From Clostridiaceae bacterium (GTDB lineage: Bacteria; Bacillota; Clostridia; DSM-8532), in NCBI GenBank assembly GCA_012840245.1, contig DULR01000046.1, forward strand, positions 1-36,512: a stretch of DNA of 36,512 bases. Reading direction: 5' to 3'. Each line of letters begins with the position of its first letter. Within the stretch, counting starts at the first letter, position 1. Positions 136 through 36,487 of this stretch are shown piece by piece. A program made the translations under genes and the position numbers. The notes below the pieces were generated by a model that saw only the letters and a program-made list of their open reading frames with translations, was not told the origin of the DNA and searched no databases.

Positions 136-2031
136 ATGAGTAAGTTCCAAAAACCACTCAGTACCTTACCTGCTGCTTTGGCGATTTTTCTGGTTCTATG
201 CATGCTCTCTTACATGTTTTCCTTCATGATTATCACTGAGGCTGCGTTTGCTGAGGACTACCCCCAATGGGATCCCACTGTTGCCTATCCGAAGGACTCG
301 ATCGTGATGCATAAAGGTGCTGTCTGGAAAGCCAAATGGTATAACGTCAATGAAGAGCCCATGGATGTTCAGGGCAATGCCTGGGAATGCATTATACCGA
401 AGCCACCCGAACCACCTGAACCACCTGAAAATCCGGATGGCTACGATCTGCCGAGAGTATTCTTCGATGACTTCAATATGTATAACGCAAGCAGCGACCA
501 GGCCTTGCTTGATTTTGGATACGAAGTGAGCGACAGAACCGGCGGTCCTGGTCCCGGGGGCTGTGTCTGGTCAAAAAACAATGTAACTTTCGTCAATGAC
601 AGTGAGCTTCCCGGCAATAAATTCTTAAGGCTAACAGCGACCACAAGAGGGTCCGGAGAAACTACCGTCCAGGCTGAGATACTGGCACCCAGAAAGTTCC
701 TCTACGGAACCTATGCTGCGAGGATCAAGTTTACGAACGAGCCTGCTTATGGACCTGACGGGGATCAGATAGTCGAGACATTTTACACCATTTCTCCGTG
801 GACTTTGCAAAACAGTCCGGATTACGGTGAAATGGACTTTGAATACCTTGCGAACGGGGGTTGGGGAAAGCCGGCGATGACCATGTGGAATACCACGTGG
901 GAAACAGCCAGCATCAGAACGACCACTCCCACGACCCGTGATTTCAGCGGCTGGCATACCTGCGTGATCCAATCCACAAGTACCGAAACCAAATATTATA
1001 TTGACGGGCAACTGCTTGCATCACACGATATCTATGCACCTGAAACAGAGATGTTCCTTTCATTCAACTTATGGTTCATCGATGGTATCTGGGCGGGCGG
1101 AAATCAGGAAAGGGCATATATTCAGGATGTTGACTGGGTATATTACGCAAAGGATGTAATAATGGCTCCTGCCCAGGCCGAATGCAATGTTCAGTACTAC
1201 AGGAACAATTCTGTTTCCCGAAAGGACACTCTTGACAGCTCAGACCCGATCCCTCCGGTCCTGAAGGCTGCAAGCATATCGGTCGATGATGCTCATAACA
1301 CAGGAAATTACACCATAACCGTAAATGTTCCTGCCAATAACAGTGCAAACACTCTGAAGCTTTATGAGCAAAACGACAATACACTGCTTCTTGAAAGAAG
1401 TCTGGCAGTCGATATGCCGGCAGTCCAGACATTCACTTACAGCTTCAGTGACAAGGAACCCGGCATATACAGCTATGTGGCAGTAACAAGTGACGGTACC
1501 GGTTCTCTCAACAGCAATATCATCACCGTTACAGTCGAAGAGGAAGATGGAGGTGACGATGAGGAGGAAGATCCGGAGCTGGTAAACGCTGCCGCAGGCA
1601 GGCCTATAACGGCCAGTGATTATATATGGGGAAATGCATCATATGTTACTGACGGTGACAAGAACACGAACAACTATATGGGAGTTACACAAAATCTGCA
1701 ATGGATACAGATCGATCTTGGAGAAAGCAAGAAGATCCACCAAATAAATCTGTGGCATTATTACGGCGATGGAAGGACATACCATGACGTGATCGTAAGG
1801 CTGTCAGATACTCCTGATTTTTCAGGTGGTGTTACTACGGTATTCAACAACGATAATGACAACAGCGCCGGTTTCGGAGCAGGCAGTGATGATGAGTATG
1901 CCGAGACGAGCGAAGGGAAGACCATTGTATTCTCACCGGTCAGCGCAAGATATGTCAGACTGTATTCAAACGGCAGCAATGCGAATATCTACAACCATTA
2001 TGTGGAAGTGGAAATATATACCGCCGACTGA
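136..2031 (+). CDS. Secreted GH16 family glycoside hydrolase with CBM5/12-like and F5/8C domains
   Basis: Probably an extracellular endo-acting glucanase-like enzyme of 631 residues. The ATG at 136 is chosen because it follows AAGGAGGGG (121-129); the frame is open further upstream. A signal peptide ends in AFA at residue 39. Residues 41-86 resemble a CBM5/12 (ChtBD3) module with W, AYP and VWKAKWY positions, followed by a PEPPEPPENP linker. The GH16 domain (about 107-345) holds the catalytic strand E232-M-D234-F-E236; by family knowledge E232 is the nucleophile and E236 the acid/base. An Ig-like domain (about 372-465), an acidic Glu/Asp linker and a discoidin-like F5/8 type C domain (from about 483) complete it. 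The motif lacks the extra residue of laminarinase-type EIDxxE, so beta-1,3- versus mixed-linked glucan, or another substrate, is undecided. A perfect hairpin follows the stop. Confidence 0.9.
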   Translation: MSKFQKPLSTLPAALAIFLVLCMLSYMFSFMIITEAAFAEDYPQWDPTVAYPKDSIVMHKGAVWKAKWYNVNEEPMDVQGNAWECIIPKPPEPPEPPENPDGYDLPRVFFDDFNMYNASSDQALLDFGYEVSDRTGGPGPGGCVWSKNNVTFVNDSELPGNKFLRLTATTRGSGETTVQAEILAPRKFLYGTYAARIKFTNEPAYGPDGDQIVETFYTISPWTLQNSPDYGEMDFEYLANGGWGKPAMTMWNTTWETASIRTTTPTTRDFSGWHTCVIQSTSTETKYYIDGQLLASHDIYAPETEMFLSFNLWFIDGIWAGGNQERAYIQDVDWVYYAKDVIMAPAQAECNVQYYRNNSVSRKDTLDSSDPIPPVLKAASISVDDAHNTGNYTITVNVPANNSANTLKLYEQNDNTLLLERSLAVDMPAVQTFTYSFSDKEPGIYSYVAVTSDGTGSLNSNIITVTVEEEDGGDDEEEDPELVNAAAGRPITASDYIWGNASYVTDGDKNTNNYMGVTQNLQWIQIDLGESKKIHQINLWHYYGDGRTYHDVIVRLSDTPDFSGGVTTVFNNDNDNSAGFGAGSDDEYAETSEGKTIVFSPVSARYVRLYSNGSNANIYNHYVEVEIYTAD

Positions 2032-2054
2032 TCATACCCCTGACCAGGTGGCCG

Positions 2055-2089
2055 AAATTTAAGCAGGACCGGAGGTCCTGCTTAAATTT
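2055..2089. terminator. Perfect 16-bp hairpin after the first GH16 gene
   Basis: AAATTTAAGCAGGACC (2055-2070) and its exact complement (2074-2089) flank a 3-base loop, followed by ATTATTATAT. The stem is strong and the trailing T-run weak. It probably separates the GH16 gene from the kinase gene, whose own promoter begins 21 bases later. Confidence 0.7.
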
Positions 2090-2109
2090 ATTATATATAC
2101 CGGTGTTTG

Positions 2110-2138
2110 TTGACATTGGAATCTTTTTTAAATACTAT
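2110..2138 (+). promoter_or_regulatory. SigA-type promoter for the yesM-yesN operon
   Basis: A consensus -35 box TTGACA (2110-2115) is 17 bases from TACTAT (2133-2138), which matches 4 of 6 positions of the -10 consensus. Transcription would start near 2145, almost on the AGAGG ribosome binding site (2145-2149), leaving a leader of only about 10 bases before the ATG at 2155. Confidence 0.55.
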
Positions 2139-2154
2139 TTACTTAGAGGTTGTT

Positions 2155-3954
2155 ATGAAATTTAAAAAATTGACAATAACAAAACAACTGACAATAACTG
2201 CTTTTTTGATCATAACGGCAGTCATTTCCGTGTTTGCCTTTGCTTATAAAAAGGCTTCTGACATCATGGTGGATAAAAATAAAAAATACTCTACAGAGAT
2301 CACTTCAAAAATAAAGCACAATATTGATCTGTATTATCAGGAAGTAACGAATATACTCTACAACATCGGCTATGATATAAACACACAGGATTATCTTACT
2401 GCTTCGAATCCCGAGAAATCATATGATCTGAGCAAAAATCTGATTTACATGTCAATAAATATGATGGTTATAAAAAAGGACATAATCGATATTGTTATAA
2501 TAAGTGAGAACGGCAGCTATTTTACCATGGAAGGTGAGTACAATACCGTATTGAGCCTCAAGGGTCAGATCCCCGATGACAGAAAAGTACATAATACCGG
2601 GTTTGTAGAGCTGACAAGCCTGAATAATGAAGGTGTAATAGCCATCATGTATGGTATGTACATAAACTCAGCTTATAATGAGGATATTCTCGGAAGGAAG
2701 ATCGGCTTTGCGGCAGTATTGGTTGATGTTAACCCAATTTTCGATGAAATTAGCAGAGTCACCGATAATACAGAGCTTAAATATTATCTGATAGACAAAA
2801 ACGGCAATATATATTCCAAAAACGATCCTCTCGGAATAAGCGGGAACAGGGAGCTTATAGAAAACATAATCAATGATTTCGAGAACAACGACATTAAAGA
2901 TACATATGAGATCAATGGATCCAGAAATATCGTACTTGTGGATGAAATCCCTATCATACAGGGCAGGATAATAAGCTTTATGCCTGAAAAGGAGCTGTTC
3001 GCGGAGATAGACCAGTTAAGGAGGATCGTAATGATCGTCCTTATGGTTACCCTGATTTCCATGTCGGTGTTATTCTTCCTTATAACCAACAATATCACCC
3101 GTCCGGTAAAAAAACTTATCTCTTTTATGGATGATCTTAAAGGAGGGAGCATCAGGGACCTTAAGAAGGAAGTCCAGCTGGAAGGGTATTTTGAGATCAC
3201 GGTATTGTCAAAGGAATTCAACAGCATGCTCAGGGAGATCAACAATCTGACTCACAGACTGTTCGAAACTAGCTCCAAGCTGTACGAAACGGAGATCGAA
3301 AAAGAAAAGTCGGAGCTGGCCTTTCTCAGAAGTCAGATCAACCCTCATTTTCTTTACAATACCCTTGAAGTGATCAAGGGCATCGCTCTTGATGAGGGAG
3401 CGGAAAAGCTTTACGAAATGACCAATGCCCTGGCTCTTGTCTTCAGATACAGCGTAAAGGGTTCCAATACGGTTCAGCTTGGCGAGGAGCTCAAGATCAT
3501 AAAAGCCTATGTGCACATCCATCTCATAAGGTTTGGAGAAAGACTGGAGGCTGAATACCAGATCGAAGAAGAAACTCTGAATGTCAAGGTACCTAAAATG
3601 ATACTCCAGCCTGTCGTTGAAAATGCATTCTTTCACGGACTGGAGGCCAAGAGGGGAAAAGGCAGGCTGACGATCGGAAGTTCGATCAACGGCAGGACCT
3701 TGAGGATCTGGATAAAGGATGACGGCGTGGGTATCGAAGAAGATAAGCTGGCCGAAATAAGATCAAAGCTTTCCGGTTCGGCTGCCGATTCCCGTCTGAA
3801 CTCCGGAAGGGACGGAAGGATCGGATTGTTCAATGTGAACAACAGGATCAAACTCACCTATGGAGCGGAATATGGTTTAAGCATATACAGTGAGCCCAGC
3901 AAGGGAACTGAGGTGGTTATTTTATTGCCTGCGGGAGATGAGGAAAATGTATAA
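2155..3954 (+). CDS. YesM-type sensor histidine kinase
   Basis: Membrane sensor kinase of 599 residues that should phosphorylate the response regulator encoded next to it. The ATG at 2155 follows AGAGG; an upstream TTG in frame overlaps the promoter and is unlikely. A first membrane segment lies at about 11-31, an extracytoplasmic sensing region at about 35-290 (double-Cache-like by position), a second membrane segment at about 292-312 and a HAMP domain after it. The His-kinase region carries INPHFLYN with H398 as the phosphoacceptor, typical of the YesM/LytS class. An N-box (QPVVENAFFHG) and a DDGVGI box mark the HATPase domain. The stop overlaps the start of the regulator gene by 8 bases, so the pair is probably translationally coupled. 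In Bacillota such pairs usually sense carbohydrate availability; the ligand here is inferred to relate to the flanking GH16 enzymes. Confidence 0.93.
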   Translation: MKFKKLTITKQLTITAFLIITAVISVFAFAYKKASDIMVDKNKKYSTEITSKIKHNIDLYYQEVTNILYNIGYDINTQDYLTASNPEKSYDLSKNLIYMSINMMVIKKDIIDIVIISENGSYFTMEGEYNTVLSLKGQIPDDRKVHNTGFVELTSLNNEGVIAIMYGMYINSAYNEDILGRKIGFAAVLVDVNPIFDEISRVTDNTELKYYLIDKNGNIYSKNDPLGISGNRELIENIINDFENNDIKDTYEINGSRNIVLVDEIPIIQGRIISFMPEKELFAEIDQLRRIVMIVLMVTLISMSVLFFLITNNITRPVKKLISFMDDLKGGSIRDLKKEVQLEGYFEITVLSKEFNSMLREINNLTHRLFETSSKLYETEIEKEKSELAFLRSQINPHFLYNTLEVIKGIALDEGAEKLYEMTNALALVFRYSVKGSNTVQLGEELKIIKAYVHIHLIRFGERLEAEYQIEEETLNVKVPKMILQPVVENAFFHGLEAKRGKGRLTIGSSINGRTLRIWIKDDGVGIEEDKLAEIRSKLSGSAADSRLNSGRDGRIGLFNVNNRIKLTYGAEYGLSIYSEPSKGTEVVILLPAGDEENV

Positions 3955-5362
3955 AGTTTTTATTGCCGATGATGAAGAATTCGTCATCAAAAGTCTCATC
4001 AGGGGAACCAACTGGAAAGAAAGCGGTTTTGAGGTGATAGCCAGCTCCAATGACGGTGTGGATGCTTATGAAGAGATCTTAAGACTGAAGCCTGATCTTG
4101 TGTTCACCGATATACGAATGCCGGGGATGACCGGTCTTGAGCTAATCAAAAATGTAAAAGAAAAGCTGGAAGGCATACAGTTTGTGATAATAAGCGGGTA
4201 TGCCGAATTCGCTTACGCTCAGAAGGCAATGAATTACGGAGCGGTCGGCTATTGTCTCAAGCCTTTTGACAACGCTGAGATCAAAAGCATACTCAGTAAG
4301 GTCAAAAATATCCTTGACAATGAAAATAAGCGAGAAAATGAAGATATCCTCTATCTGATCGAAGATGAAGACCACGACAATCATGCCGAAACAGAAGAAT
4401 TTTTCAGATCGAACGGAATATTTCCCGAAAAAGGCTTTACCGTGGCAGTTACTATAGGAGGCAAATCCGCCAGGCTTTTCAATTCAGAAAAAACTGTCAG
4501 GCTGAAAATCGGATACGACAAATCCATATATTTTCTTCAGGATTATAATGATGAGGATCTTGTCAGTTCTGAGTTTACCGGAAATGTGAAAAGCATAGGG
4601 ATTTATGATATTATTTATACAGTGGCCGATCTGAAGAATGTTATCGATGAGACCATTATACTGGCTTACCAGTATTTTATATCGGGCAGCAAATGGCCAT
4701 TCAGAAAAAAAGCCGAGGACAGGAATGTGGAGAAGCTGATAATCAGCTTTGAAAATGCCATGATCCACATGGACATAGAAGAGATCAAAAAAGTGCTTGC
4801 AGGCTTCCATGAGTACTCTCAGAACGGCAAAATGAATGTAAAGCATGCCATAAACATTTATAATTCATATGTAAGTTTCTCTTCCAGGCTTTTGGGCGAG
4901 GAAGGCTATGAAGAATACATATACAATATCGATGAATTATGTAAGCGATTTTCCGGGATGCAGGAAATGCTCGAGTACATAACAACATCGACCATGAATA
5001 TTATAGGAAGAAAAAAGACCGGAAACATATCCGATATCAGAAATGAATATTTCAAGAAGATTATTGATTATATCAACCGCAATTTTTACAAGGATATATC
5101 GATACAGAGCCTTTCCCGGGATTATGCGCTGAACTCCAACTATTTATGCCAGTTGTTCAGACGGGAGCTTGGAATGACCTTTACCGATTATCTGACAGGG
5201 CTAAGGATCAACTACTCGAAGGAATTGCTTAAAAATACCGACCTCACGCTCGGTGAGATTGCCGGTAAAAGCGGATATACAGATTATTTCTATTTCATAA
5301 GGGTATTTAAGAAGATCACCGGTAAAAGCCCCGGACAATTTCGCAGCTCCAGCAGGGAGTGA
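3947..5362 (+). CDS. YesN-type response regulator with AraC DNA-binding domain
   Basis: Cytoplasmic transcription regulator of 471 residues and partner of the upstream kinase. The start at 3947 lies inside the kinase's last codons and follows GGAGATGAGG. The receiver domain (1-125) has the acidic pair D8-D9, the phosphoacceptor D55 in TDIRMPG and the conserved Lys in YCLKPF. The middle (about 130-365) is a poorly conserved linker region. The C-terminal part from about 368 is an AraC double helix-turn-helix ending in GKSPGQFR. By family knowledge it would bind near promoters of transport and glycoside hydrolase genes once phosphorylated; the GH16 genes and the following binding-protein gene are the obvious candidates. 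Confidence 0.93.
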   Translation: MYKVFIADDEEFVIKSLIRGTNWKESGFEVIASSNDGVDAYEEILRLKPDLVFTDIRMPGMTGLELIKNVKEKLEGIQFVIISGYAEFAYAQKAMNYGAVGYCLKPFDNAEIKSILSKVKNILDNENKRENEDILYLIEDEDHDNHAETEEFFRSNGIFPEKGFTVAVTIGGKSARLFNSEKTVRLKIGYDKSIYFLQDYNDEDLVSSEFTGNVKSIGIYDIIYTVADLKNVIDETIILAYQYFISGSKWPFRKKAEDRNVEKLIISFENAMIHMDIEEIKKVLAGFHEYSQNGKMNVKHAINIYNSYVSFSSRLLGEEGYEEYIYNIDELCKRFSGMQEMLEYITTSTMNIIGRKKTGNISDIRNEYFKKIIDYINRNFYKDISIQSLSRDYALNSNYLCQLFRRELGMTFTDYLTGLRINYSKELLKNTDLTLGEIAGKSGYTDYFYFIRVFKKITGKSPGQFRSSSRE

Positions 5363-5404
5363 TTAATGCCCGCGACTGTTCAGCGTAACCAGGAGGGTCA
5401 TTGA

Positions 5405-6997
5405 ATGAGGGAAGAGCGGAAAATCGGAATACTGGCGGTTATTTTGTCGGTAATCGTAATAAGTGCAGGCTGCAGTGATAAGGTACCAGCCAGAGAAACC
5501 GGTACTGACCAAGAAAATTCATTATATGAGGATCGGATGGAAATATCGGTTGCTCTCTGGGGGATAGACGATGCACTGTCGCATAAGGAAAACGACCAGT
5601 TTTATGAGCATTTATCCGAAAGATTCAATATCGAACTAAAACCTGTACCAATAAACTGGGATGATTATACCCAGAAAATCATATTATGGGCATCAACGGG
5701 CGATCTTCCCGACATATTCTCCATTGACGCTATCGGAACGAGCTATTACAGGGACTGGATAAAAAGAAAGCTGATAAAGTCCCTGCCCGATGATTTGAGC
5801 AGGTTTCCGAATCTCGAAAAATATCTGGCCGAAGCAGATATAGAGAATCTGAAGGTGAACGGCAAGCTGTATTTTGTTCCAAGGCGCCTTTATGATTCGA
5901 TCAAGTACTGTGTCCATGACAGGAATATATTCTACAGGTGGGACCTGGCACAGAAGGCCGGTATAAACAAGGAACCGGAAACATGGGAAGAATTCTCATC
6001 CATGCTCGACGCGATCATAAAAAATGATCCGGAGAACAGAAATATCCAGGGGCTGACTTTTGTGAACATGAAACATATAAGCGGCCTGTTCTGGTTATAC
6101 AGCAATCCTGCCGCTGCCAGCGACGGAAGCGGGAACGATTATAAATGGATAAAAGAAAACGGGAAGTATATCCCGGCCGTCTTCTCTGAAAAATCTCTGC
6201 CTTCCCTTATAAACCTGAGGAATATGTATGTGAACGGGCTCACAGACAGGGAGGCTGTTTCGGCCAAGGGTACCCAGGGATATGAGAAATTTGCCGAAGG
6301 CAAGGCTGCTGCGATTCTGATCAAAGGATACGGGAATCTCGATACTTTCGTGCTGAAAAAATGGAAAGAAATATATCCTGATAAGGAATTGACCGAGTGT
6401 GTCAAAAGAGCCAGGAATTTTCCCGCTGTCGATGGAAATAAGTATCAATGTGTCTTTAAGACATTCTGGTCCGAAAGCTATTTCAACAATGAAATGAGTG
6501 ATGAGAAATTTAGCCGGATCCTTGATCTGTATGACTATATGCTTTCGGAGGAAACAAAGGAGTTCTACAGGTTCGGAGTAAAAGGCGTCGATTATATAAA
6601 GGAAGGCAACAGAATAATCCCAATTACGAATTCGGAGGACCTTAAGAAAAAACAGCATTCAGGGCCTGTTCTGAGCAGCCTTGTGGAGTATGACGACCAG
6701 TTCCAGTATGATCCCAACAATTACACACTTGATCTTAAGATAAGAGAGATGGCTTCATCGGATATAGCCACTGATATGGCCGAAACAGTCATCCCTGAGT
6801 ATGAGGATAGCCTTACATATCTTTCTACTCCTTCCAAGGATGTTTTTGCGATCTATGATTATGATGACATGATCAGGGTAATGATAAGCGAAAAACCGGT
6901 GGAAGTTGTCTGGAACGAGATCATCGAGGGTTATCGCAAGAAGGGTCTGGACAAGGTGATCGAAGAAGTCAACAACATTATGGATGATCCAGGATGA
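5405..6997 (+). CDS. ABC transporter solute-binding lipoprotein (LplA/YtcQ-like)
   Basis: Extracellular sugar-binding lipoprotein of 530 residues, anchored to the outer face of the membrane. The start follows AGGAGGG (5392-5398). The signal peptide ends in a lipobox, ISAGC, with C23 as the lipidated cysteine. The length and overall pattern (LWG near the mature start, ASTGDLPDIF, PETWEEF) fit the large binding proteins that partner YesM/YesN systems. It probably captures oligosaccharides released by the GH16 enzymes. No permease gene is adjacent or elsewhere in the window, so membrane components must be encoded elsewhere or absent. A truncated paralogue lies at 10433-11296. Confidence 0.88.
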   Translation: MREERKIGILAVILSVIVISAGCSDKVPARETGTDQENSLYEDRMEISVALWGIDDALSHKENDQFYEHLSERFNIELKPVPINWDDYTQKIILWASTGDLPDIFSIDAIGTSYYRDWIKRKLIKSLPDDLSRFPNLEKYLAEADIENLKVNGKLYFVPRRLYDSIKYCVHDRNIFYRWDLAQKAGINKEPETWEEFSSMLDAIIKNDPENRNIQGLTFVNMKHISGLFWLYSNPAAASDGSGNDYKWIKENGKYIPAVFSEKSLPSLINLRNMYVNGLTDREAVSAKGTQGYEKFAEGKAAAILIKGYGNLDTFVLKKWKEIYPDKELTECVKRARNFPAVDGNKYQCVFKTFWSESYFNNEMSDEKFSRILDLYDYMLSEETKEFYRFGVKGVDYIKEGNRIIPITNSEDLKKKQHSGPVLSSLVEYDDQFQYDPNNYTLDLKIREMASSDIATDMAETVIPEYEDSLTYLSTPSKDVFAIYDYDDMIRVMISEKPVEVVWNEIIEGYRKKGLDKVIEEVNNIMDDPG

Positions 6998-7042
6998 CAC
7001 TGAATGGACTTAAATTATATTATGAATGGATTCATGTTACAT

Positions 7043-7069
7043 GAAGCGTATTGGTTACGCTTCTTTTTT
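7043..7069 (+). terminator. Rho-independent terminator after the binding-protein gene
   Basis: GAAGCGTA (7043-7050) pairs with TACGCTTC (7056-7063) around a 5-base loop, and a run of T follows to 7069. It closes the yesM-yesN-binding protein operon. Confidence 0.8.
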
Positions 7070-7156
7070 ATTCTCAACTAAACATTTTGAATATTTTAAA
7101 AATATCTTCTTCATATGAAATGCCCGTCTTTGATTATAAAATGAACAATGCGAAGC

Positions 7157-7176
7157 AAACACTTCCAGTAGTGTTT
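7157..7176. promoter_or_regulatory. Inverted repeat upstream of the tandem GH16 gene
   Basis: AAACACT (7157-7163) and AGTGTTT (7170-7176) form a perfect 7-bp inverted repeat with a 6-base spacer, 34 bases before the start codon. It lies in the leader or promoter region and may be an operator. It resembles the CAGTG/CACTG repeat at 80-97 only loosely. Confidence 0.35.
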
Positions 7177-7209
7177 TATCAATCAAATCAAAGATTGGAG
7201 TGAGGAGTC

Positions 7210-10023
7210 ATGTTTAAATCTTATTCAAGATCTGCTGCGGCGTTGCTGGCAATCATCACCATATTCGCATTCATGCTGGTCAACGCCTGTTACTCCGATG
7301 CGACTTCAGGCCCGATAAAGGGGGAAACAGCTGTGGGCGAGTTCTTTGATGATTTCAACTATTCCGACCCGAATGACGCCGAACTGGCAAAAATGGGATG
7401 GACAGTCAAGGAAAGCACTACTGAGGGTCCCGGCCCCATAGGTTGTTCATGGTCAAAAAGCAATGTAACGTTTATAAACGATCCTGCCATGGCAGGAAAC
7501 AAGCTGGCCAGGCTGACATCGACCACAGACGGGACCAACTCAGGTACAAGCCAGGCTGAGATCTTCCAGCAGAGAAAGTTCTATGAGGGTACATATGCGG
7601 CGAGAGTAAGATTCACTGACAGCCCCGTGTCAGGACCTGATGGCGACAGCATCGTCGAGACCTTTTTTGCCATAACTCCCCTTGAATATGATATGGATCC
7701 CAACTACTGCGAGTGTGATTTCGAATATATGCCAAACGGAGGCTGGGGGGATACCAGATGCTTCATGTACGAAACCACCTGGGAGACCTATCAGAATGAG
7801 CCATGGCAGTCTGTGAACACCACCGAATTCCAGTTCGAAAGCTTTGAGGGCTGGCACGAACTTTTGTTCACTGTCAAAAACGGCTATGTAAAATACTATA
7901 TAGACGGAAAGCTTGTCGCGTCGCACAGCGGCAAATACTATCCCGAGCATCCCATGAGCATCAATTTCAACCTCTGGTTCGTGAACGGCGGTCTGCTGGA
8001 TTCATCAGAGATCAGAAAATATGTCCAGGATATCGACTGGGTGTATTTTAAGGAATACGCCGAACTTTCCATCCAGCAGGTGAGAAAGGCAGTGCAGAAT
8101 TTCAGGAAAGATTCTGTTTCCCGAAAAGACACTGTTGAGCCCAAGACGGGATCTGTTCCTGCGCCGTGCACACTTATCTGCGACAGGGAGGTAAACACCG
8201 GTGATTATAAAATAACGATAACTATTCCGGCAGGCAATTCTGCCACCAGCCTGAGGCTGTACGAAAATGACGAACTGGTCATGGTCAAGAACTTCAAACC
8301 AGGTTCGAACAGGGAAAATAACTATTCATATGTAGTAAGAAACAAGGCAAAGGGAGATTATGTGTACAGGGCCGATCTTTCGAACGGGAACGGCACGCTT
8401 ATCGGAGAAGACCTGACCGTTAAGGTCACAGACATATTCTTTGACGATTTCATTTATTCCAAGATAACCGACAAAAACTTCTCAAAGATGGGATGGACCA
8501 TAAAAGAAAGCACGACAGACGGTCCCGGACCAATTGGATGCTCATGGACCAAGGAAAATGTGACCCTTGTGAACGATCCTGATATGAAGGGCAACAAAGT
8601 GGTAAGGCTGACTTCCATCACAGACGGTACGAACGCGGGAACGAGCCAGGGCGAAATATATCAGCAGAGGAAGTTCTATGAAGGAACATACGCAGCAAGG
8701 GTCAAATTTAACGACAGTCCCGACATCGGACCCGACGGGGACAGTATTGTTGAAACATTCTTTGCCATCACTCCTTTAAAATATGATATGGACCCTGATT
8801 ACTGCGAATGTGATTTTGAATATATGCCCAATGGTGGCTGGGGAGACCCAAACGGATTCATGTATGAAACCACATGGGAAACTTATCAGGGAGATCCATG
8901 GAATGCGGTCAACATCACTGAGTTCCAGTATCGGCGCTTCGAAGGCTGGCATACATTGGTTTTCACAGTAAAGGAAGGGGTCGTGAGGTATTATATAGAC
9001 GGAGATATAGTTGCTGAACACAGCGATAAATATTACCCTGAGCACCCGATGAGTATCAATTTCAACCTGTGGTTCGTCAACGGAGGCCTAATAGATTCGG
9101 ATGAGATCCGCGAATACACCGAAGACATCGATTGGGTGTTCTATGCCGAGGATGTCGTACTGACCTGTGAACAGGCCGAGGCCGCCGTAAGGAACTTCAG
9201 GGCATCGAATACTAAGAGAACAGATACCGTCAAACCTAAAGACGCCGGACTGATCCCCCAGGAATCTGCGGTATTAAGCGTTGACAGCCCCCAGAACAGC
9301 GGCGATTACAACATTCAGGTAACAGTTCCCGCCAACAGCAATGCAAGGGAACTGAAGCTGTACGAAAACGGCAGGCTTATCATGGTCAAACCGATCACAC
9401 CAGGCCTGCAGCAAGTCCAGACATTCAATTATCAGGCTCAGTCCAAACCGGTTATGACATATAAATACCAGGCTGATCTGTCAAATGAAAACGGCACGAA
9501 ATCGAGCCAGGAACTCGATGTTGAAGTAATGATCGGAGATTTTCCGGTAAATGTTGCGATAAACAAACCTGCTACAGGCGGTAACGGGCTTTATATCAAT
9601 CCCACTGCGCTCAACGACGGAGACAAAACAGCGGCTGAAGGCCATTATACAGGTGTCGGCGGTGAAGGATTGCAATGGGCTCAGATAGACTTCGGCAAAA
9701 GCTATGATGTCAACAAAATTGTAGTTTGGCATTATTATGCCGACGGAAGGATCGTACACGATCTGATAATCCAGCTTTCCAACGACCCGAATTTTGAGAC
9801 CGGCGTCGTGACAGTATTCAATAATGATACAGACAATTCTGCCGGGCTTGGTTCCGGGACCGACGAGGAATATGCTGAAACGCCTGAAGGTAAGACCATA
9901 GTGTTCGATACCGTAAACGCCAGATATGTAAGGCATTATCAAAACGGTGCTCTGAAGCCCGACGGGGAAGAAAGCCCGTATAACCAGATCGTCGAACTGG
10001 AAGTCTGGACAGCCGGGAAATAA
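7210..10023 (+). CDS. Probable lipoprotein with two tandem GH16 domains, Ig-like domains and F5/8C domain
   Basis: Surface glycoside hydrolase of 937 residues with two apparently complete catalytic domains. The ATG follows GGAGTGAGGAG. The N-terminal hydrophobic stretch ends in LVNAC, a possible lipobox with C27 (Asn at -2 is unusual), so it is likely membrane-anchored, unlike the first GH16 protein. GH16 unit A runs from F45 with catalytic strand E168-C-D170-F-E172. Unit B runs from F410 with E533-C-D535-F-E537. Each is followed by an Ig-like domain introduced by a short A-V-x-N-F-R motif. A discoidin-like F5/8C domain (about 778-937) closely matches that of the first GH16 protein. No CBM5/12 module is present. 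Substrate is probably the same glucan class; a related secreted GH16 group exists in Streptomyces as far as I recall. Confidence 0.9.
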   Translation: MFKSYSRSAAALLAIITIFAFMLVNACYSDATSGPIKGETAVGEFFDDFNYSDPNDAELAKMGWTVKESTTEGPGPIGCSWSKSNVTFINDPAMAGNKLARLTSTTDGTNSGTSQAEIFQQRKFYEGTYAARVRFTDSPVSGPDGDSIVETFFAITPLEYDMDPNYCECDFEYMPNGGWGDTRCFMYETTWETYQNEPWQSVNTTEFQFESFEGWHELLFTVKNGYVKYYIDGKLVASHSGKYYPEHPMSINFNLWFVNGGLLDSSEIRKYVQDIDWVYFKEYAELSIQQVRKAVQNFRKDSVSRKDTVEPKTGSVPAPCTLICDREVNTGDYKITITIPAGNSATSLRLYENDELVMVKNFKPGSNRENNYSYVVRNKAKGDYVYRADLSNGNGTLIGEDLTVKVTDIFFDDFIYSKITDKNFSKMGWTIKESTTDGPGPIGCSWTKENVTLVNDPDMKGNKVVRLTSITDGTNAGTSQGEIYQQRKFYEGTYAARVKFNDSPDIGPDGDSIVETFFAITPLKYDMDPDYCECDFEYMPNGGWGDPNGFMYETTWETYQGDPWNAVNITEFQYRRFEGWHTLVFTVKEGVVRYYIDGDIVAEHSDKYYPEHPMSINFNLWFVNGGLIDSDEIREYTEDIDWVFYAEDVVLTCEQAEAAVRNFRASNTKRTDTVKPKDAGLIPQESAVLSVDSPQNSGDYNIQVTVPANSNARELKLYENGRLIMVKPITPGLQQVQTFNYQAQSKPVMTYKYQADLSNENGTKSSQELDVEVMIGDFPVNVAINKPATGGNGLYINPTALNDGDKTAAEGHYTGVGGEGLQWAQIDFGKSYDVNKIVVWHYYADGRIVHDLIIQLSNDPNFETGVVTVFNNDTDNSAGLGSGTDEEYAETPEGKTIVFDTVNARYVRHYQNGALKPDGEESPYNQIVELEVWTAGK
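7342..8436 (+). repeat. Intragenic tandem repeat, unit A (GH16 + Ig)
   Basis: The unit begins at FFDDF (codon 45) and is 1095 bases, or 365 codons, long. The second copy begins at FFDDF in codon 410 (8437). The distance from the unit start to the catalytic Glu is the same in both (123 residues), so no net insertion or deletion separates the catalytic cores. Long stretches are identical in protein, for example around PNGGWGD and FNLWFVNGG. Confidence 0.85.
8437..9540 (+). repeat. Intragenic tandem repeat, unit B (GH16 + Ig)
   Basis: Second copy of the GH16 plus Ig unit, starting at codon 410 and ending near the VEVMIGD linker before the F5/8C domain. Its Ig part resembles that of the first GH16 protein (NTGNYTITVNVPANNSA there, NSGDYNIQVTVPANSNA here). 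Confidence 0.8.
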
Positions 10024-10050
10024 CACCGGGTTCATCATTTTTTGAGTCTA

Positions 10051-10111
10051 GGGGACGGAGGCTTTGACTCATTCTGGGTGGGAGCAAGAATGAGTCGAAG
10101 CCTCCGTCCCC
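10051..10111. repeat. Large intergenic hairpin repeat
   Basis: A 25-base left arm (10051-10075), beginning GGGGACGGAGGC, is complementary to 10087-10111 with a single G-T type mismatch and an 11-base loop. GGGACGG-type hairpins of this sort recur between genes in many Clostridia. It lies 27 bases after the GH16 stop and may also end that transcript. No transposase is present, so it would be mobilised in trans if at all. Confidence 0.7.
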
Positions 10112-10168
10112 AAAACTCAGAAGCGGAGGGATGTCGTAAACGAGCATATGAATCATATTGTCGTTTGT

Positions 10169-10210
10169 GCTCTTCGTCGCTTCGCTCCTCAGAATGACAA
10201 AGTAAGGCTA
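10169..10210. repeat. Dispersed intergenic repeat related to the one at the right end
   Basis: Positions 10188-10210, read on the minus strand, match 36107-36129 at 22 of 23 bases (core CCTTACTTTGTCAT). The adjoining GGAGCGAAGCGACGAAG is a variant of the GAGCGAAGCG repeat seen twice at the right end. The stretch 10112-10430 shows no supportable gene and appears to be repeat and scar sequence. Confidence 0.65.
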
Positions 10211-10432
10211 CGTAGCGGCACTTATTGGCTGTACTAATCAAATTGTGCAGAAGCATTGTCCACGACACGCAGCAAATGGATTTCAGTTATATAAAATATG
10301 GACTGAATTCATATGCCTGTTCATTAATGGTATATATCTGTCTGATTGCTCTGACTATTTTGCATATCTCTTATAACTTTGGTTTATATGATAGCCTTTG
10401 GCAGGCTGGTAAAATTTACTCATGGAAATCTT

Positions 10433-11296
10433 TTCAAAATAAAGGATGAAGGAAGATATGTTCCCGCTGTTTTGACCACTAAATACTCACTGCCTGCTCT
10501 GAAGAATGTGAGAGAAATGTACGAGCAGGGACTTATCGACAAGGATATCGCGCTTGTTAAAGGGCAGCAGGCTTATGACAAGTTTGCCTCAGGAAAAGCC
10601 GCAGCAATTCTTGTTGTGGGATACGGAAATATCAATAATCTGCTGCTGCCCCGATGGAAAGAGCTTCATCCCGACGTACCGCTGCTCGATGCGGTCAAGC
10701 GTGTAAAATATTTTCCCTCGACCGACGGAAACCGCTATTATTGCACGTTCAGAACATACTGGTCGGAAAGTTATTTCAGTTCGAATGTGGACGACAGAAA
10801 AATGGACAGGATCATGAGGATGTATGATTACCTGCTCCAGCCCGACACAAAGGAATTTTACCGCTTCGGTGTCAAGGGTGTTGACTATAAGAAAGAGGGA
10901 GACAAGATAATACCGCTCATAAGCAATGAAGAGCTTCTGAAGAAGCAGCCCGGTGCAGGTACGGTCGGAGCTCTCGTTGAGTTCGATGATCAATATCTGT
11001 ATGATCCCAACAACTTTACCATTGACCCGGCTATCAGGGAAGCTGCCGTAAAGGACCTTGAATATGCAAAATCAGTTACAAGGGAACCGGATTATGAAGT
11101 AAGGCTTACATATGTTTCAACACCGACTAAGGATAAGTTTACGATTTTCGATCATGATTTCATGCTCAACATCATGATGGGCAAAGAACCTGTAGAGAAG
11201 ATGTGGGAGGAACTGCTGAATGATTATGAAGCCAAAGGCCTGAGCAAGATGATCGAAGAGGTCAATGAGAAAGCCAGGGAAATGGGTCTGGATTAA
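10433..11296 (+). pseudogene. 5'-truncated ABC solute-binding protein gene
   Basis: Homology to the intact binding protein at 5405-6997 starts abruptly at FKIKDEGRY (matching YKWIKENGKY) and runs to the stop. Shared blocks include KFAxGKAAAIL, TKEFYRFGVKGVDY and DPNNxTxD. The first roughly 245 residues are missing, including signal peptide, lipobox and N-terminal lobe. The frame stays open a little further upstream, but nothing there resembles the family and no ribosome binding site precedes a start codon. The preserved 3' frame suggests a recent loss or a structurally constrained remnant. The neighbouring repeats at 10051-10210 mark the likely deletion junction. Confidence 0.8.
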
Positions 11297-11318
11297 ATGA
11301 CAGTGAGTTTTTCAAACA

Positions 11319-11348
11319 GAGGCCCGGGTGCTCTCCCGGGCTTCTTTT
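11319..11348 (+). terminator. Terminator after the truncated binding-protein gene
   Basis: GCCCGGG (11322-11328) pairs with CCCGGGC (11335-11341) around a 6-base loop, and TTCTTTT follows. It isolates the phosphorylase gene from the pseudogene. Confidence 0.7.
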
Positions 11349-11385
11349 ACTCATTGATACAAGATTTGCTGCAAAGGGGGATAAT

Positions 11386-14016
11386 ATGTTTTTTAAAACC
11401 ATCAATGAGATTTCCGAAAGATATAATGAGGCAATGAACGGCAAGGGACGAAGCAAACAGATGCCCGGCAACGTGTATTTTCTTGATGATCACCGTATCC
11501 TGTCCATACCTGACAGATCAACTGATTGCAGATATCCTTATGGATATGACGGATTCAATTTCTGGGCACATAGTTCGGGGTATATGTACTGCAATGACGG
11601 GCGCTTTTCGGTTTTTCCGAAGGCATCGGAAGGGCAGGAACCCAAAATTGCCTTTTTTGCAGGGTTCAGGCATTCAGACGATGATCATGAGGTTATATCG
11701 CTGCTGCCGGTACCCAGATTGAGGACCTTGAACATGACGGCAGTCAGATATACGGTTTTTTCAGGCTCATGCGCATATTACATAACCGAAGCGTGTGATA
11801 TGAGATTTTCTGTCAGAGTATTCCCTGACAAGGAAAATACTTTGCATTTTACTTTGGGAGCAGAAAACCTGTCACCGGAAGCCAGAAGGTTCTTCATATC
11901 TGCTTTTATAAACCCGTTTCTGCGCCATGATTTGTTTGAAGGCGCAGAAAACAGATGGTTCCGGGAGGTAAGGTTCATAAGATCCGTAACAGAAGACAAC
12001 GACCTGGGAAGCTTTATGATCAGGACCAACGAAGACCTGAGCAGGACAGAGTCGGTATCCAATATTGCGGCCTTATCAAGGCATATCACCTTTTACGGGA
12101 ACTGCAGAATGCTGTCCCATGAGGAAACCGCCTCCAGATATGAGTACGTTGGAGGTATAATGAATAATCTCAGCTATCCGGAGCCGTTGTACAGAGGGCA
12201 TCTGCCGGAAGGAAAGAATCGGTGCGCATTTACAGAGACAGGGGCAGCGGGGGACATAATCTGTCTTGATATGGGACCCGGCTCAGCGGTCAGGTATGAT
12301 TTGGAGCTCAAATACAGGACCCAATGCAAAGATGAGAAAGAAGCCGGATTTCTGTTCGCCAGACATTTGACTCCGACCGAGAAGGACGATCTTTCCGCAA
12401 GCCTTGAAAAAGAGGCCATTATGTCTTTCGAAAACCTGTCTGTTGAGTTTTCTGGCCCATCGGAAGGCCCTGTTGAAAGCGGGCTGCTGAACTCCTTCTT
12501 TTATCACCTGATGAAGCAGGTTAAATTCTGCTCGCTTATAAAAGGCTATGTTCAGCTTTCACCGCTTTCGATGATCGGAATAAGAGATGTTTTTCAGGCT
12601 TTGGAGGCATATATGTTCTGGGAGCCTTCGGCAGCGAAGAGAAAAATGCTTGAAGCTCTGAACTTCGTTCTGGAAGACGGAAGATGCCCGCGGCAGTATA
12701 CACTGCCTTTAAAAAAAGGGGCCCCCGCGTACATGGACCTGAGACCTTTCATAGACCAGGGGTCATGGGTCATATCAGCGGTATCGACATATCTCAAATT
12801 AACGGGAGATTTTGGATTTTTGACTGAATCATGCGGCTATTGCCTGGCTGATGAGGGTAAAGGCGTTGGGATAAGCAGCGGCAAAAGCGACAGTGTCCTT
12901 GACCATCTGATCAGGATAATGGATTATCTTCTGAGCAACAGGGATTTTGGACATACAGGACTGATAAAGGCCTTGTACGGAGACTGGAATGATGCTCTGG
13001 ACGGACTGGGCGTAAGCAGTGAAGAGGGCGTCGCCTTCGGGACAGGCGTCTCGGTCATGGCATCCCTCCATGTTTATCAAAACCTGGCTGAAATCATTGG
13101 CATCCTTGAAAAAGTGAATGAAGCACTGGATACCGGTGAGCATTATTTGGCAAAAATACCCATTTATTCGGAAGCAAGGAGCATTCTTGAAAGTAATATC
13201 CTCAAGTATGCAGTTGTCGAAGGCCTCAATGATGAAAAAAGAATAGTTCACGGCTGGGGAGACAAAAGGTCGTATCTGGTCGGCAGCTTTTGCGATCCTG
13301 ACGGAGAATCAAGATATAGCCTGACTTCGAATGCATTCTGGGTCCTGTCCGGTTTATATGAAAAAACCCCGGAAATGAAAAAGGTTATATTAAAGGCTTT
13401 TAAGAATTTGGATTCAAAATATGGATATAGAACTTTTGCCCCCCATTTCCCTCCCGATTGTCCCGGAGTGGGAAGAATACCCAAACTTCCAAAAGGTACA
13501 GCAGAAAACGGGGCTGTATACATACATGCTTCAACATTTGCAATAATGGCGCTTTTCAGAATGGGACTAGCCAGGGAGGCCTGGGACCAGATTTTCAGGA
13601 TCCTTCCCTTCACACACCGTAAGGTTTCCTGTTCTCCGTATGTAATGCCTAACTCATATGGCTGTAATGAAGAGCTTAACATCGACGGAGAGTCGATGAA
13701 TGACTGGCAGACCGGCAGTTCCAACGTTTTGTTCAAGATATTCATGAGATTTGTTTTCGGTATCGAGCCCGAACATGATTGCCTGATTATCCAGCCGGCA
13801 AACTGGTTTCCGTTTGAAGAACTCAGGGTGGATATAAAAATACGTTCATGTCTGTTGAGGTTAAGATATAAAAATACAGGAACAGGAAACAGAAAATTCT
13901 ATATCAACGGCAGATTATTCAAAGGGGAATATAACAAACATATTAAGACAGAATATATAAAAATACCCTGGAATCAGCTTGATATGCATACTTGTGACAT
14001 ATTGGCGGAAGACTGA
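11386..14016 (+). CDS. Glycoside phosphorylase of the GH94/GH149/GH161 group
   Basis: Cytoplasmic enzyme of 876 residues without a signal peptide, start preceded by AAAGGGGG. An N-terminal beta-rich region (about 1-330) is followed by an alpha/alpha-barrel region with the hallmark GDWNDALD; D536 in it matches the general acid Asp of GH94 enzymes. ENGAVYIHAS and DWQTGSSNVLFK, then GIEPEHDCLIIQP, correspond to the phosphate-site and C-terminal blocks of this group. Such enzymes split beta-linked oligosaccharides with phosphate to give a sugar 1-phosphate. With GH16 enzymes next door a beta-1,3- or mixed-linked gluco-oligosaccharide is a plausible substrate, but cellobiose-type or other specificities are not excluded. 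The family within the group cannot be settled by eye. Confidence 0.78.
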   Translation: MFFKTINEISERYNEAMNGKGRSKQMPGNVYFLDDHRILSIPDRSTDCRYPYGYDGFNFWAHSSGYMYCNDGRFSVFPKASEGQEPKIAFFAGFRHSDDDHEVISLLPVPRLRTLNMTAVRYTVFSGSCAYYITEACDMRFSVRVFPDKENTLHFTLGAENLSPEARRFFISAFINPFLRHDLFEGAENRWFREVRFIRSVTEDNDLGSFMIRTNEDLSRTESVSNIAALSRHITFYGNCRMLSHEETASRYEYVGGIMNNLSYPEPLYRGHLPEGKNRCAFTETGAAGDIICLDMGPGSAVRYDLELKYRTQCKDEKEAGFLFARHLTPTEKDDLSASLEKEAIMSFENLSVEFSGPSEGPVESGLLNSFFYHLMKQVKFCSLIKGYVQLSPLSMIGIRDVFQALEAYMFWEPSAAKRKMLEALNFVLEDGRCPRQYTLPLKKGAPAYMDLRPFIDQGSWVISAVSTYLKLTGDFGFLTESCGYCLADEGKGVGISSGKSDSVLDHLIRIMDYLLSNRDFGHTGLIKALYGDWNDALDGLGVSSEEGVAFGTGVSVMASLHVYQNLAEIIGILEKVNEALDTGEHYLAKIPIYSEARSILESNILKYAVVEGLNDEKRIVHGWGDKRSYLVGSFCDPDGESRYSLTSNAFWVLSGLYEKTPEMKKVILKAFKNLDSKYGYRTFAPHFPPDCPGVGRIPKLPKGTAENGAVYIHASTFAIMALFRMGLAREAWDQIFRILPFTHRKVSCSPYVMPNSYGCNEELNIDGESMNDWQTGSSNVLFKIFMRFVFGIEPEHDCLIIQPANWFPFEELRVDIKIRSCLLRLRYKNTGTGNRKFYINGRLFKGEYNKHIKTEYIKIPWNQLDMHTCDILAED

Positions 14017-16898: not shown

Positions 16899-16959
16899 AG
16901 TATTATGTACAGTCTGCCATCAGAAAAAATAGAAAAAATGCTTTGAGAGGAATGATATC

Positions 16960-17952
16960 ATGCAAAAGAAGCCTAAAATACTGGTCGTCGGAAGTTTCGT
17001 AATGGATCTGATAGTCAGTACCAGCCGTGTTCCCAATGAAGGTGAAACAGTTATAGCCGGACTGGACTTCAAGACTGCTTCAGGCGGTAAAGGTGCCAAT
17101 CAGGCTGTTCAGGCTGCAAAACTGGGAGCCGATGTGACTTTTGTCGGCAAAGTCGGAGACGACAGCTTCGGCAGGGAGATGGTCGCTGCAGTCAGCGCCG
17201 CAGGCGTCAATACCGATTATGTGCTTATGGATAATAAGGTTTCATCGGGAGTAGGCAATGTTATTCTTGAATGCAAACCAGGACAGAAAGCAAAGAACAG
17301 GATAATCGTAGTCCCCGGAGCAAATATGACTATTACACGGGACGAGATCGCGTTCCTGAAGGATACTGTAAAAAATTATGATATGGTCATCATGCAGCTT
17401 GAGATCCCAATGGAGATTAATGAGACAGTAGCTTCTTATGCATATGATGCCGGAGTTCCTGTAATGCTGAATTCAGCTCCTTCAGCACCGCTTTCTCCTG
17501 AGTTATTGAAAAAACTCACCTATATATCTCCAAACGAGCATGAGGCAGCTGATTTGACAGGCATTAAGATAACCAGAGAAGAAGGCATTCTGGACATGGA
17601 TTCAGTGAAGAAGGCAGCATCGAAGCTTCTCGAAATGGGAGTAAAGAACGTTATCATCACCCTGGGAAGCAGCGGAGTCGCATTTATGAACAGCGAAACC
17701 TTTATATACAAGCCATGTATCGACATAGTCAAAGTTGTAGATCCTACAGCCGCAGGGGATTCATTCGTAGGGTCCTTCTGTACTGCGGTCGCCTCGGGCA
17801 GGAGCCACGAGGAAGCTCTTGATTATGCTAACTATACAGCAACACTGACAGTTTCGAGAATGGGCGCGCAGCCGTCACTACCCACCAATGATGAAGTCGA
17901 AGAGCTTATTCGCACGCATAAAAAGCAATTGCAGGAGGAAGGAAAACAGTGA
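16960..17952 (+). CDS. rbsK: PfkB-family sugar kinase, ribokinase-like
   Basis: Cytoplasmic sugar kinase of 330 residues, start after GAGAGGA. VVGSFVMDLI at the N-terminus and GGKGANQAVQAAKLG are the PfkB substrate-binding signature typical of ribokinase. DPTAAGDSFVG (261-271) is the second signature, with D267 as catalytic base. Ribokinase normally has DTTAAGDAFNG, so the Pro, Ser and Val are small departures that could mark another sugar. Its last bases overlap the start of the isomerase gene (TGATG), so the two are probably made together. No ribose transporter is nearby, so ribose as the substrate is not established. Confidence 0.8.
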   Translation: MQKKPKILVVGSFVMDLIVSTSRVPNEGETVIAGLDFKTASGGKGANQAVQAAKLGADVTFVGKVGDDSFGREMVAAVSAAGVNTDYVLMDNKVSSGVGNVILECKPGQKAKNRIIVVPGANMTITRDEIAFLKDTVKNYDMVIMQLEIPMEINETVASYAYDAGVPVMLNSAPSAPLSPELLKKLTYISPNEHEAADLTGIKITREEGILDMDSVKKAASKLLEMGVKNVIITLGSSGVAFMNSETFIYKPCIDIVKVVDPTAAGDSFVGSFCTAVASGRSHEEALDYANYTATLTVSRMGAQPSLPTNDEVEELIRTHKKQLQEEGKQ

Positions 17953-18563
17953 TGGACAGGATTAATGATAAATGTGCTTTTGAGTTTTTTGATATAGTAT
18001 GGCAGGAGATGGAGGAATTAAGGAGCAGGATAAACGAAGGTTTTTATCAGAAGGCTGTTGAACTTATCCTCGCTTCCGAAAAAGCCGGAGGGCGTATCCA
18101 TATAACCGGGATAGGGAAACCCTCATATGTGGCCGGATATATAGCTTCTCTCATGTCCTCGACCGGAACGCCCACCTATGTCCTTCACGGAACAGAAGCG
18201 ATCCATGGCTCATCCGGACAGGTCAGGGAAGGAGATGTTGTGATAGCCATATCGAACAGCGGTGAGACAGCAGAACTGAAAGCCACGGTAACAACTGTAA
18301 AGAATAACGGAGCAAAGATCATCTCGGTGTCAGGAAACTCCGAGTCCTGGCTTGCTAAAGAAGGGGATGCATTCCTGTTCGCAGGTGTGAAAAGAGAGGG
18401 AGATGCACTGAACAGAGCGCCCCGGGCTTCGATCCTTGCAGAAATATTGGTTCTCCAGGGTCTTAGTATAATACTTCAGGATATAAAAGGACTTACACCT
18501 GTCCAGTATGTCAAATGGCATCCGGGCGGAGCTCTGGGAAAACTCAGAGAAAATGAAAAATAG
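17952..18563 (+). CDS. SIS-domain sugar-phosphate isomerase, arabinose-5-phosphate isomerase-like without CBS domains
   Basis: Protein of 203 residues from the ATG at 17952 (a GTG directly before it is possible), with GGAGG at 17935. The single SIS domain holds GIGKPS, STGTPTYVLHG, EAIHG, ISNSGETAE and HPGGALGK. Aligned by eye with E. coli KdsD, all four residues reported as catalytic are kept: K56, H85, E108 and H190. The C-terminal CBS pair of KdsD is absent. The reaction would be ribulose 5-phosphate to arabinose 5-phosphate, which is odd for a Gram-positive without Kdo, or a related pentose or hexose isomerisation. Coupling to a ribokinase-like gene suggests joint work on one sugar. A terminator follows. 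Confidence 0.82.
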   Translation: MDRINDKCAFEFFDIVWQEMEELRSRINEGFYQKAVELILASEKAGGRIHITGIGKPSYVAGYIASLMSSTGTPTYVLHGTEAIHGSSGQVREGDVVIAISNSGETAELKATVTTVKNNGAKIISVSGNSESWLAKEGDAFLFAGVKREGDALNRAPRASILAEILVLQGLSIILQDIKGLTPVQYVKWHPGGALGKLRENEK

Positions 18564-29962: not shown

Positions 29963-30733
29963 TCAACGTTTATCAGTATATAGCACTCTGTATTGCTGTG
30001 CGGTGAGGCCTACAGTCTTTTTAAAAAAACGACAGAAGTTTCCCAAATCGCGAAATCCTGTTTTCGCGCATATTTCTTTGATCGACAGACGGGTAGTGGC
30101 GAGAAGCTTCTTAGCTTCAAGCAGCCGCCTTGCCTGAATATACTGATATGGTGTCTGATGGACCAGATCCTTAAAGACAGTGTGCAGGTGAGGTATGCTG
30201 ATATCGGCTATAGATGCCAGTTGCTCGATTTTTATATCCTTATGGTAATTCTCTTCGATCCAGTTTTTGATTTTCTGGATCTCATCGATCCGTTTACTGC
30301 TTGGTACGTCGAAACCTGATGTCCTTGCATGCCAGTAAAGTTCGCCGTATATATAATATGACAGCTTCTCGGTGTCACAGGATTCACTGTGGTACTCGGT
30401 AAGGACATTATCGATGAATACCCTCAGGGAGTATTTGTCTTCCCACTGGCTGATCGTATTGACGGGCGGTTTTTTTCCTGAGCTGAACGACAAAACCAGA
30501 CACTCATATGGATTCTCCAGGTCATTCATATATATGGTTTTTTCGCCGGGGCCATGCCAGAGGATGGTTCCGGGCAAAGCCTCAAGTATCCTGTTGTCAT
30601 GCTCAAAAAAGCCTCTGCCTGAGATGATCAGCTCGATATCCTGCTGATCTGCGGGTATGACCCGCGGCTGAGGATTGACACCGTATGGAGCCTTGTAATA
30701 GAATACGTATTTTATCTTCGGGACACTTAACAT
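29963..30733 (-). CDS. AraC-family transcription regulator
   Basis: Cytoplasmic regulator of 256 residues. The N-terminal cupin-like sensing domain (about 1-150) has the PADQQDIELIISGRGFFEHDN block and a metal- or sugar-pocket pattern. The C-terminal AraC domain (about 155-256) carries IEENYHKDIKIEQLASIADISIPHLHTVFKDLV and the second helix-turn-helix SIKEICAKTGFRDLGNFCRFFKKTVGLTAQQYR. It is divergent from the GH3 gene, so control of GH3 in response to a sugar is the best guess; cotJ downstream is a less likely target. Confidence 0.9.
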   Translation of the reverse strand: MLSVPKIKYVFYYKAPYGVNPQPRVIPADQQDIELIISGRGFFEHDNRILEALPGTILWHGPGEKTIYMNDLENPYECLVLSFSSGKKPPVNTISQWEDKYSLRVFIDNVLTEYHSESCDTEKLSYYIYGELYWHARTSGFDVPSSKRIDEIQKIKNWIEENYHKDIKIEQLASIADISIPHLHTVFKDLVHQTPYQYIQARRLLEAKKLLATTRLSIKEICAKTGFRDLGNFCRFFKKTVGLTAQQYRVLYTDKR

Positions 30734-30812: not shown

Positions 30813-30855
30813 TAACAATAGCTTGATCCGGCTATCAGAAACAAGAGGTGAAATA

Positions 30856-36118: not shown

Positions 36119-36155
36119 GTCATCCTGAGCGAAGCGCAGCGAAGTCGAAGGATCT
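36119..36155. repeat. Direct repeat copy 1
   Basis: A 37-base sequence beginning GTCATCCTGAGCGAAGCG is identical to 36451-36487. The core with alternating GAGCGAAGCGCAGCGAAG has internal short repeats. The upstream extension 36107-36129 matches the minus strand of 10188-10210. Confidence 0.85.
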
Positions 36156-36450: not shown

Positions 36451-36487
36451 GTCATCCTGAGCGAAGCGCAGCGAAGTCGAAGGATCT
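36451..36487. repeat. Direct repeat copy 2
   Basis: Identical over 37 bases to 36119-36155, 332 bases apart. A further CGTCGCAGCGAC near the window edge (from 36501) repeats the same theme. Confidence 0.85.

Follow-up and report, generated by a model that had tools for sequence, protein, structure and literature searches.

The window, by which we mean the whole stretch of 36,512 nt analysed here, makes up an entire contig (C19) of a 2.9 Mb genome assembled in 108 contigs (99.99% complete by the tool's estimate), so that both of its ends are contig edges. On the plus strand it carries, in this order, a GH16 gene (GH16_1), yesM, yesN, an intact binding protein gene (SBP1), a second GH16 gene (GH16_2), a junction of 401 bp, the C-terminal half of a second binding protein gene (SBP2 fragment) and a gene for a GH94-superfamily phosphorylase. 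The coordinates given below refer to the plus strand unless noted otherwise.

GH16_1 (136..2031, alternative start at 115), which is of the type called GH16a below, encodes a secreted beta-glucanase-like protein with an SVSRKDT linker, in which Pfam revealed a weak CBM5/12 match, a GH16 module (catalytic motif EMDFE) and an F5/8C domain. A consensus scan found an intrinsic-terminator-like stem of 16 pairs 3' of this gene (2055..2089) and a promoter-like TTGACA-17-TACTAT 5' of yesM (2110..2138; score 10/12), the latter being a weak candidate since the scan total was close to the shuffle mean. YesM (2155..3954) was identified by Pfam as a sensor histidine kinase (His_kinase, HATPase), the extracellular region of which displayed a dCache match below its cut-off, and YesN (3947..5362) as an AraC-family response regulator. 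SBP1 (5405..6997) starts 42 bp after yesN behind an AGGAGGG ribosome site, with no adjoining permease gene; according to Pfam and its sequence, it is an extracellular binding lipoprotein of 530 aa with a lipobox-like ...ISAGC, and an intrinsic terminator of eight pairs plus a T run lies 3' of it (7043..7069; consensus scan). Because of the terminator-like stems after GH16_1 and SBP1 and the close spacing, yesM, yesN and SBP1 can be regarded as one unit. The order of GH16, yesM, yesN and binding protein described in the first-pass annotation agrees with both coordinates and Pfam.

GH16_2 (7210..10023; GH16b type by Pfam and comparison) comprises two GH16 modules with ECDFE motifs, linkers and an F5/8C domain. 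It belongs to the same family as GH16_1, as had been noted before, with 44% identity over 539 aa and F5/8C common to both. Its GH16 module was duplicated internally (7388-7687 and 8483-8782, 73% DNA identity, spacing of 1095 nt), both modules being complete and each carrying ECDFE; in an unrooted module tree they are each other's partners and stand on the GH16b side. Thus, the catalytic motif EMDFE/ECDFE is kept in 3/3 GH16 modules, and by eye the N-terminus looks signal-peptide-like. The SVSRKDT block, counted earlier among the features shared by two copies of one unit, is indeed present in both GH16 genes (83% over 47 nt), but since the GH16a genes of relatives have it too, it is a family feature.

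The junction (10024..10423), delimited by spacing against relatives, contains a hairpin and a dispersed repeat, as reported at first, though the hairpin measures 83 nt (10040..10122, arms 10040-10075 and 10087-10122, no strand assigned) and not 61. It has a folding energy of -63.2 kcal/mol (z -10) and belongs to a dispersed family with about 30 places in the genome; a genome search placed the second element (10171..10216, likewise unstranded) at about 20, the two families jointly giving about 50 places and 70 matches. An Rfam search of the window gave no match. The second element is of the GTCATCCTGAGCGAAGCG... type, while the hairpin family is long and G+C-rich. Members of the two families are often found no more than about 100 bp apart (e.g. 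C32:75248/75364, C103:15407-15531, C62:49926-50069), as though together they made up a composite BIME-like cluster. At the right contig end, the second element occurs as a pair of identical 37-nt copies (36119-36155 and 36451-36487), which likely caused the assembly break there.

The SBP2 fragment (10379..11296, TTG start), recognised by alignment and tree, is an open frame of 305 codons. Since it aligns with residues 243-523 of SBP1 only (52-53% identity, E 4e-109), it represents the C-terminal half of a transport binding protein, and the first-pass annotation was right that the first half is gone. Signal peptide, lipobox and ribosome site are absent from it, while clear ribosome sites precede SBP1, GH16_1, GH16_2 and GH94. 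A terminator-like stem (GCCCGGG/CCCGGGC with a T-rich tail; 11322..11350), recorded by the consensus scan as a palindrome on the minus strand, separates the fragment from the GH94 gene (11386..14016), which has its own AAAGGGGG ribosome site. The profile match of the latter (Pfam PF17167, E 1.2e-31) supplies the locus with an intracellular phosphorylase, and its PDB matches are cellobiose phosphorylases.

Comparison with relatives provided further insight into how this arrangement arose. When 84,980 species genomes were scanned, a locus of a Eubacterium sp. MAG (JAQSXC010000130.1; genome G405) was recovered with the order yesN-lplB-lplC-SBP-PGM-GH94-GH16; this genome has two further SBP homologues, and another of its loci (L090/L092) shows the near-intact order yesM-yesN-[transposase]-GH16a-lplB-lplC-SBP. 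The most complete arrangement, hereafter locus A, is yesM-yesN-GH16a-GH16b-lplB-lplC-SBP-PGM-GH94 in genomes G406 (L103) and G415 (L105). Locus A was held by three genomes only, with proteins 50-69% identical to those of the window, and each intact relative has one yesM-yesN pair per locus and lplB-lplC ahead of the SBP gene. The first-pass annotation had proposed a second yesM-yesN pair, since lost, between the second GH16 gene and the SBP gene; no such pair was found at this place in L103, L105 or L090/L092, the relatives carrying lplB-lplC there. In L090, the transposase gene (16949-18205) lies on the opposite strand between yesN and GH16a, so that mobile DNA disturbs the locus in another lineage as well. 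G406 and G415 each have a second, paralogous locus, locus B (L104, G406:C17; L106, G415:C72), with yesM-yesN opposite lplB-lplC-SBP, and further on PGM and GH94; four conserved genes precede PGM, two of which by eye resemble LarA-like and GH2-like proteins, and locus B possibly serves a different beta-glucoside pathway.

Phylogenetic analysis placed most genes of the window with locus A. YesM and YesN cluster with their locus A counterparts (support 99/99), YesN being 49-50% identical to that of locus A vs 46.5% to that of locus B. GH16_1 clusters with GH16a of L103/L105/L090 (59-60% identity, support 100/100), the GH94 protein with that of locus A (99/97), the same gene being found in the relatives' loci, and the SBP2 fragment with the SBPs of L103/L105/L090 (68-69%, support 95/97). 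Consequently, the window represents one locus A plus an extra SBP rather than two units, and GH16_1 and GH16_2 are old neighbours under one sensor pair. Nevertheless, its order differs from the intact one in that GH16a lies upstream of yesM and SBP1 directly behind yesN. PGM is missing between SBP and GH94, but as a copy (71% identity) is located on another contig, it was displaced and not lost. The GH16b of the relatives has a single GH16 module and no F5/8C, so that GH16_2, the modules of which are 45-47% identical to the L103 GH16b, shows an extra second module plus F5/8C. A search of 13 genomes of the same genus and 18 others of the same family yielded no orthologue of the SBP2 fragment, for which reason horizontal acquisition of the locus is possible; a class-wide search for a GH16_2 counterpart found none beyond its own genome. 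Given the 50-69% identity of the intact relatives and their absence from the genus and family genomes searched, the exact ancestral order is an inferred one.

The spacing between GH16b and SBP points to what was removed. Between the stop codon of GH16b and codon 258 of the SBP gene lie 401 bp in the window vs 3003-3005 bp in L105/L103, the extra span there being lplB, lplC and the 5' half of the SBP gene. Judging from sequence comparison, a single deletion of about 3 kb would therefore have taken lplB, lplC and the N-terminal half of the transport SBP, leaving a repeat-laden scar of about 400 bp, though it could have happened in several steps; recombination between dispersed repeat copies is a plausible candidate cause. 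A search for remnants of lplB, lplC, the SBP N-half, PGM, yesM and yesN in 10000-10450 and 11280-11400 gave no significant match (best E 0.07, with DNA scores inside the shuffle range), and lplB, lplC and PGM had no match across the whole window. The importer is therefore incomplete, its cognate ABC permeases being absent and its transport SBP truncated. In the own, near-complete genome, no close homologue of lplB was found (best 42% vs about 60% among the compared loci), and the three best hits, considered also as permease partners for SBP1, each lie beside another SBP of their own. Of the earlier proposal, the deletion at a junction rich in repeats and the existence of an intact arrangement in relatives were borne out, while the loss of a second sensor was not. 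Accordingly, we are confident that the window contains one rearranged, degenerate polysaccharide-utilisation locus, composed of locus A and an extra SBP, from which the importer was deleted.

The junction sequence is known from a multi-contig assembly, in which dispersed repeats occupy both the junction and the right end of the contig, and a false join via a repeat could in principle mimic a deletion while the permeases are intact in the real genome. This is unlikely, as the flanks of the junction are parts of one and the same locus and follow each other as expected (GH16b on one side, SBP C-half and GH94 on the other), the junction elements reach no more than 85-93% identity over at least 40 bp with their other genomic copies, and an lplB orthologue was found on no other contig. 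Still less probable is a role of the SBP2 fragment as a short functional protein or regulator under selection. Its open frame shows almost no decay, with 4 of 94 columns invariant in other lineages broken (two of them at the breakpoint) vs 22 of 112 in the intact SBP1, but a recent deletion accounts for this equally well, the signals for secretion and translation named above are missing, and a two-lobe fold would lack one lobe. The fragment is a young pseudogene, and since it is almost undecayed, the deletion is probably recent.

Least credible of all is the idea, put forward at first, of a tandem duplication of a whole GH16-yesM-yesN-SBP unit whose second copy then lost yesM-yesN and half of its SBP gene: the GH16 genes and the related SBPs, two of each, do lie in the expected order, yet intact relatives have a single yesM-yesN with permeases before the SBP, the SBP fragment and GH16_1 each cluster with genes of other genomes (68-69% vs 52-53% to SBP1, and 59-60% vs 44% to GH16_2, respectively), the F5/8C of GH16_1 is 67% identical to that of a relative's GH16a vs 54% to that of GH16_2, and a constrained tree uniting the fragment with SBP1 was rejected, at AU p = 0.031 only.

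The degenerate locus is an example of a known locus type. YesMN-LplBC-type operons, such as yesLMNOPQ of B. subtilis, serve oligosaccharide uptake. Like these operons (also L040, L042, L104, L106 and L108), the locus has the two-component pair and, in its intact form, LplB/LplC and an SBP, whereas in the window the permeases are deleted and there are two SBPs, one of them truncated. The mixed-linkage beta-glucan locus of Blautia producta consists of GH16, an ABC transporter and GH94 (PMC10318527) and shares with the relatives of the window a secreted multimodular GH16, an SBP-dependent ABC importer and an intracellular GH94. Its enzyme, however, is a GH16_3 that carries EXDXXE and CBM4 modules (PMC10318527). 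The GH16 modules of the window have ExDxE and are combined with F5/8C, and the window is without the permeases and half of the importer SBP. Ruminiclostridium cellulolyticum uses the three-component sensor CuaDSR together with CuaABC-CbpA, the gene order being D-S-R and the transporter present and essential (PMC10384115). In the window, too, a binding lipoprotein gene adjoins the kinase/regulator pair within one operon, free of permease genes and apart from the transporter SBP, and a GH94-type phosphorylase is present; the differences are that SBP1 comes after the regulator and that the importer has been lost by deletion.

SBP1 itself is, by its sequence, a divergent extra paralogue; in trees it forms a long branch, and its placement (locus A, locus B or another source) is poorly fixed. 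Its AlphaFold model (pLDDT 80) gave AlgQ1/AlgQ2-type SBPs and FusA, all large oligosaccharide-binding proteins, as best Foldseek matches (E 1e-15 to 6e-19, TM about 0.6), with a sequence identity of 14-18% that does not imply the ligand. By analogy to CuaDSR, SBP1 may present oligosaccharides to YesM. That it now serves YesM-YesN solely as a sensor subunit, forming a three-component sensor in a locus that kept its sensing and secreted-enzyme half after loss of the importer, is a tentative idea which we regard as possible but rather doubtful; binding between SBP and sensor or ligand was studied for CuaDSR by two-hybrid or ITC (PMC10384115).

A working of the locus can be proposed along these lines. 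Once secreted, both GH16 enzymes would cleave a beta-glucan-like polymer outside the cell, by analogy to Blautia (PMC10318527), SBP1 and YesM would sense the released oligosaccharides, and YesN would turn on the GH16 enzymes and the GH94 phosphorylase, which, by the same analogy, would split imported oligosaccharides (PMC10318527). With the cognate importer gone, uptake either proceeds via another transporter or has failed, and we expect it to fail through the lplB-lplC route unless another permease serves SBP1. If the reading of SBP1 as a sensor is true, the cell senses and cuts a polymer without an import route of its own, a public-goods or transporter-swap state, and the kept SBP-YesM-YesN operon offers a small testable case of binding proteins as parts of a sensor instead of transport. 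The locus also provides an example of a Gram-positive polysaccharide locus trimmed at a cluster of dispersed repeats, and demonstrates that two copies read from a single genome can mislead where relatives reveal one locus with adjoining GH16 paralogues. Farther along the same contig lies a GH3 gene (30823-32961), with an AraC-type regulator just upstream on the opposite strand (29963-30733), and this gene could be a source of beta-glucosidase.
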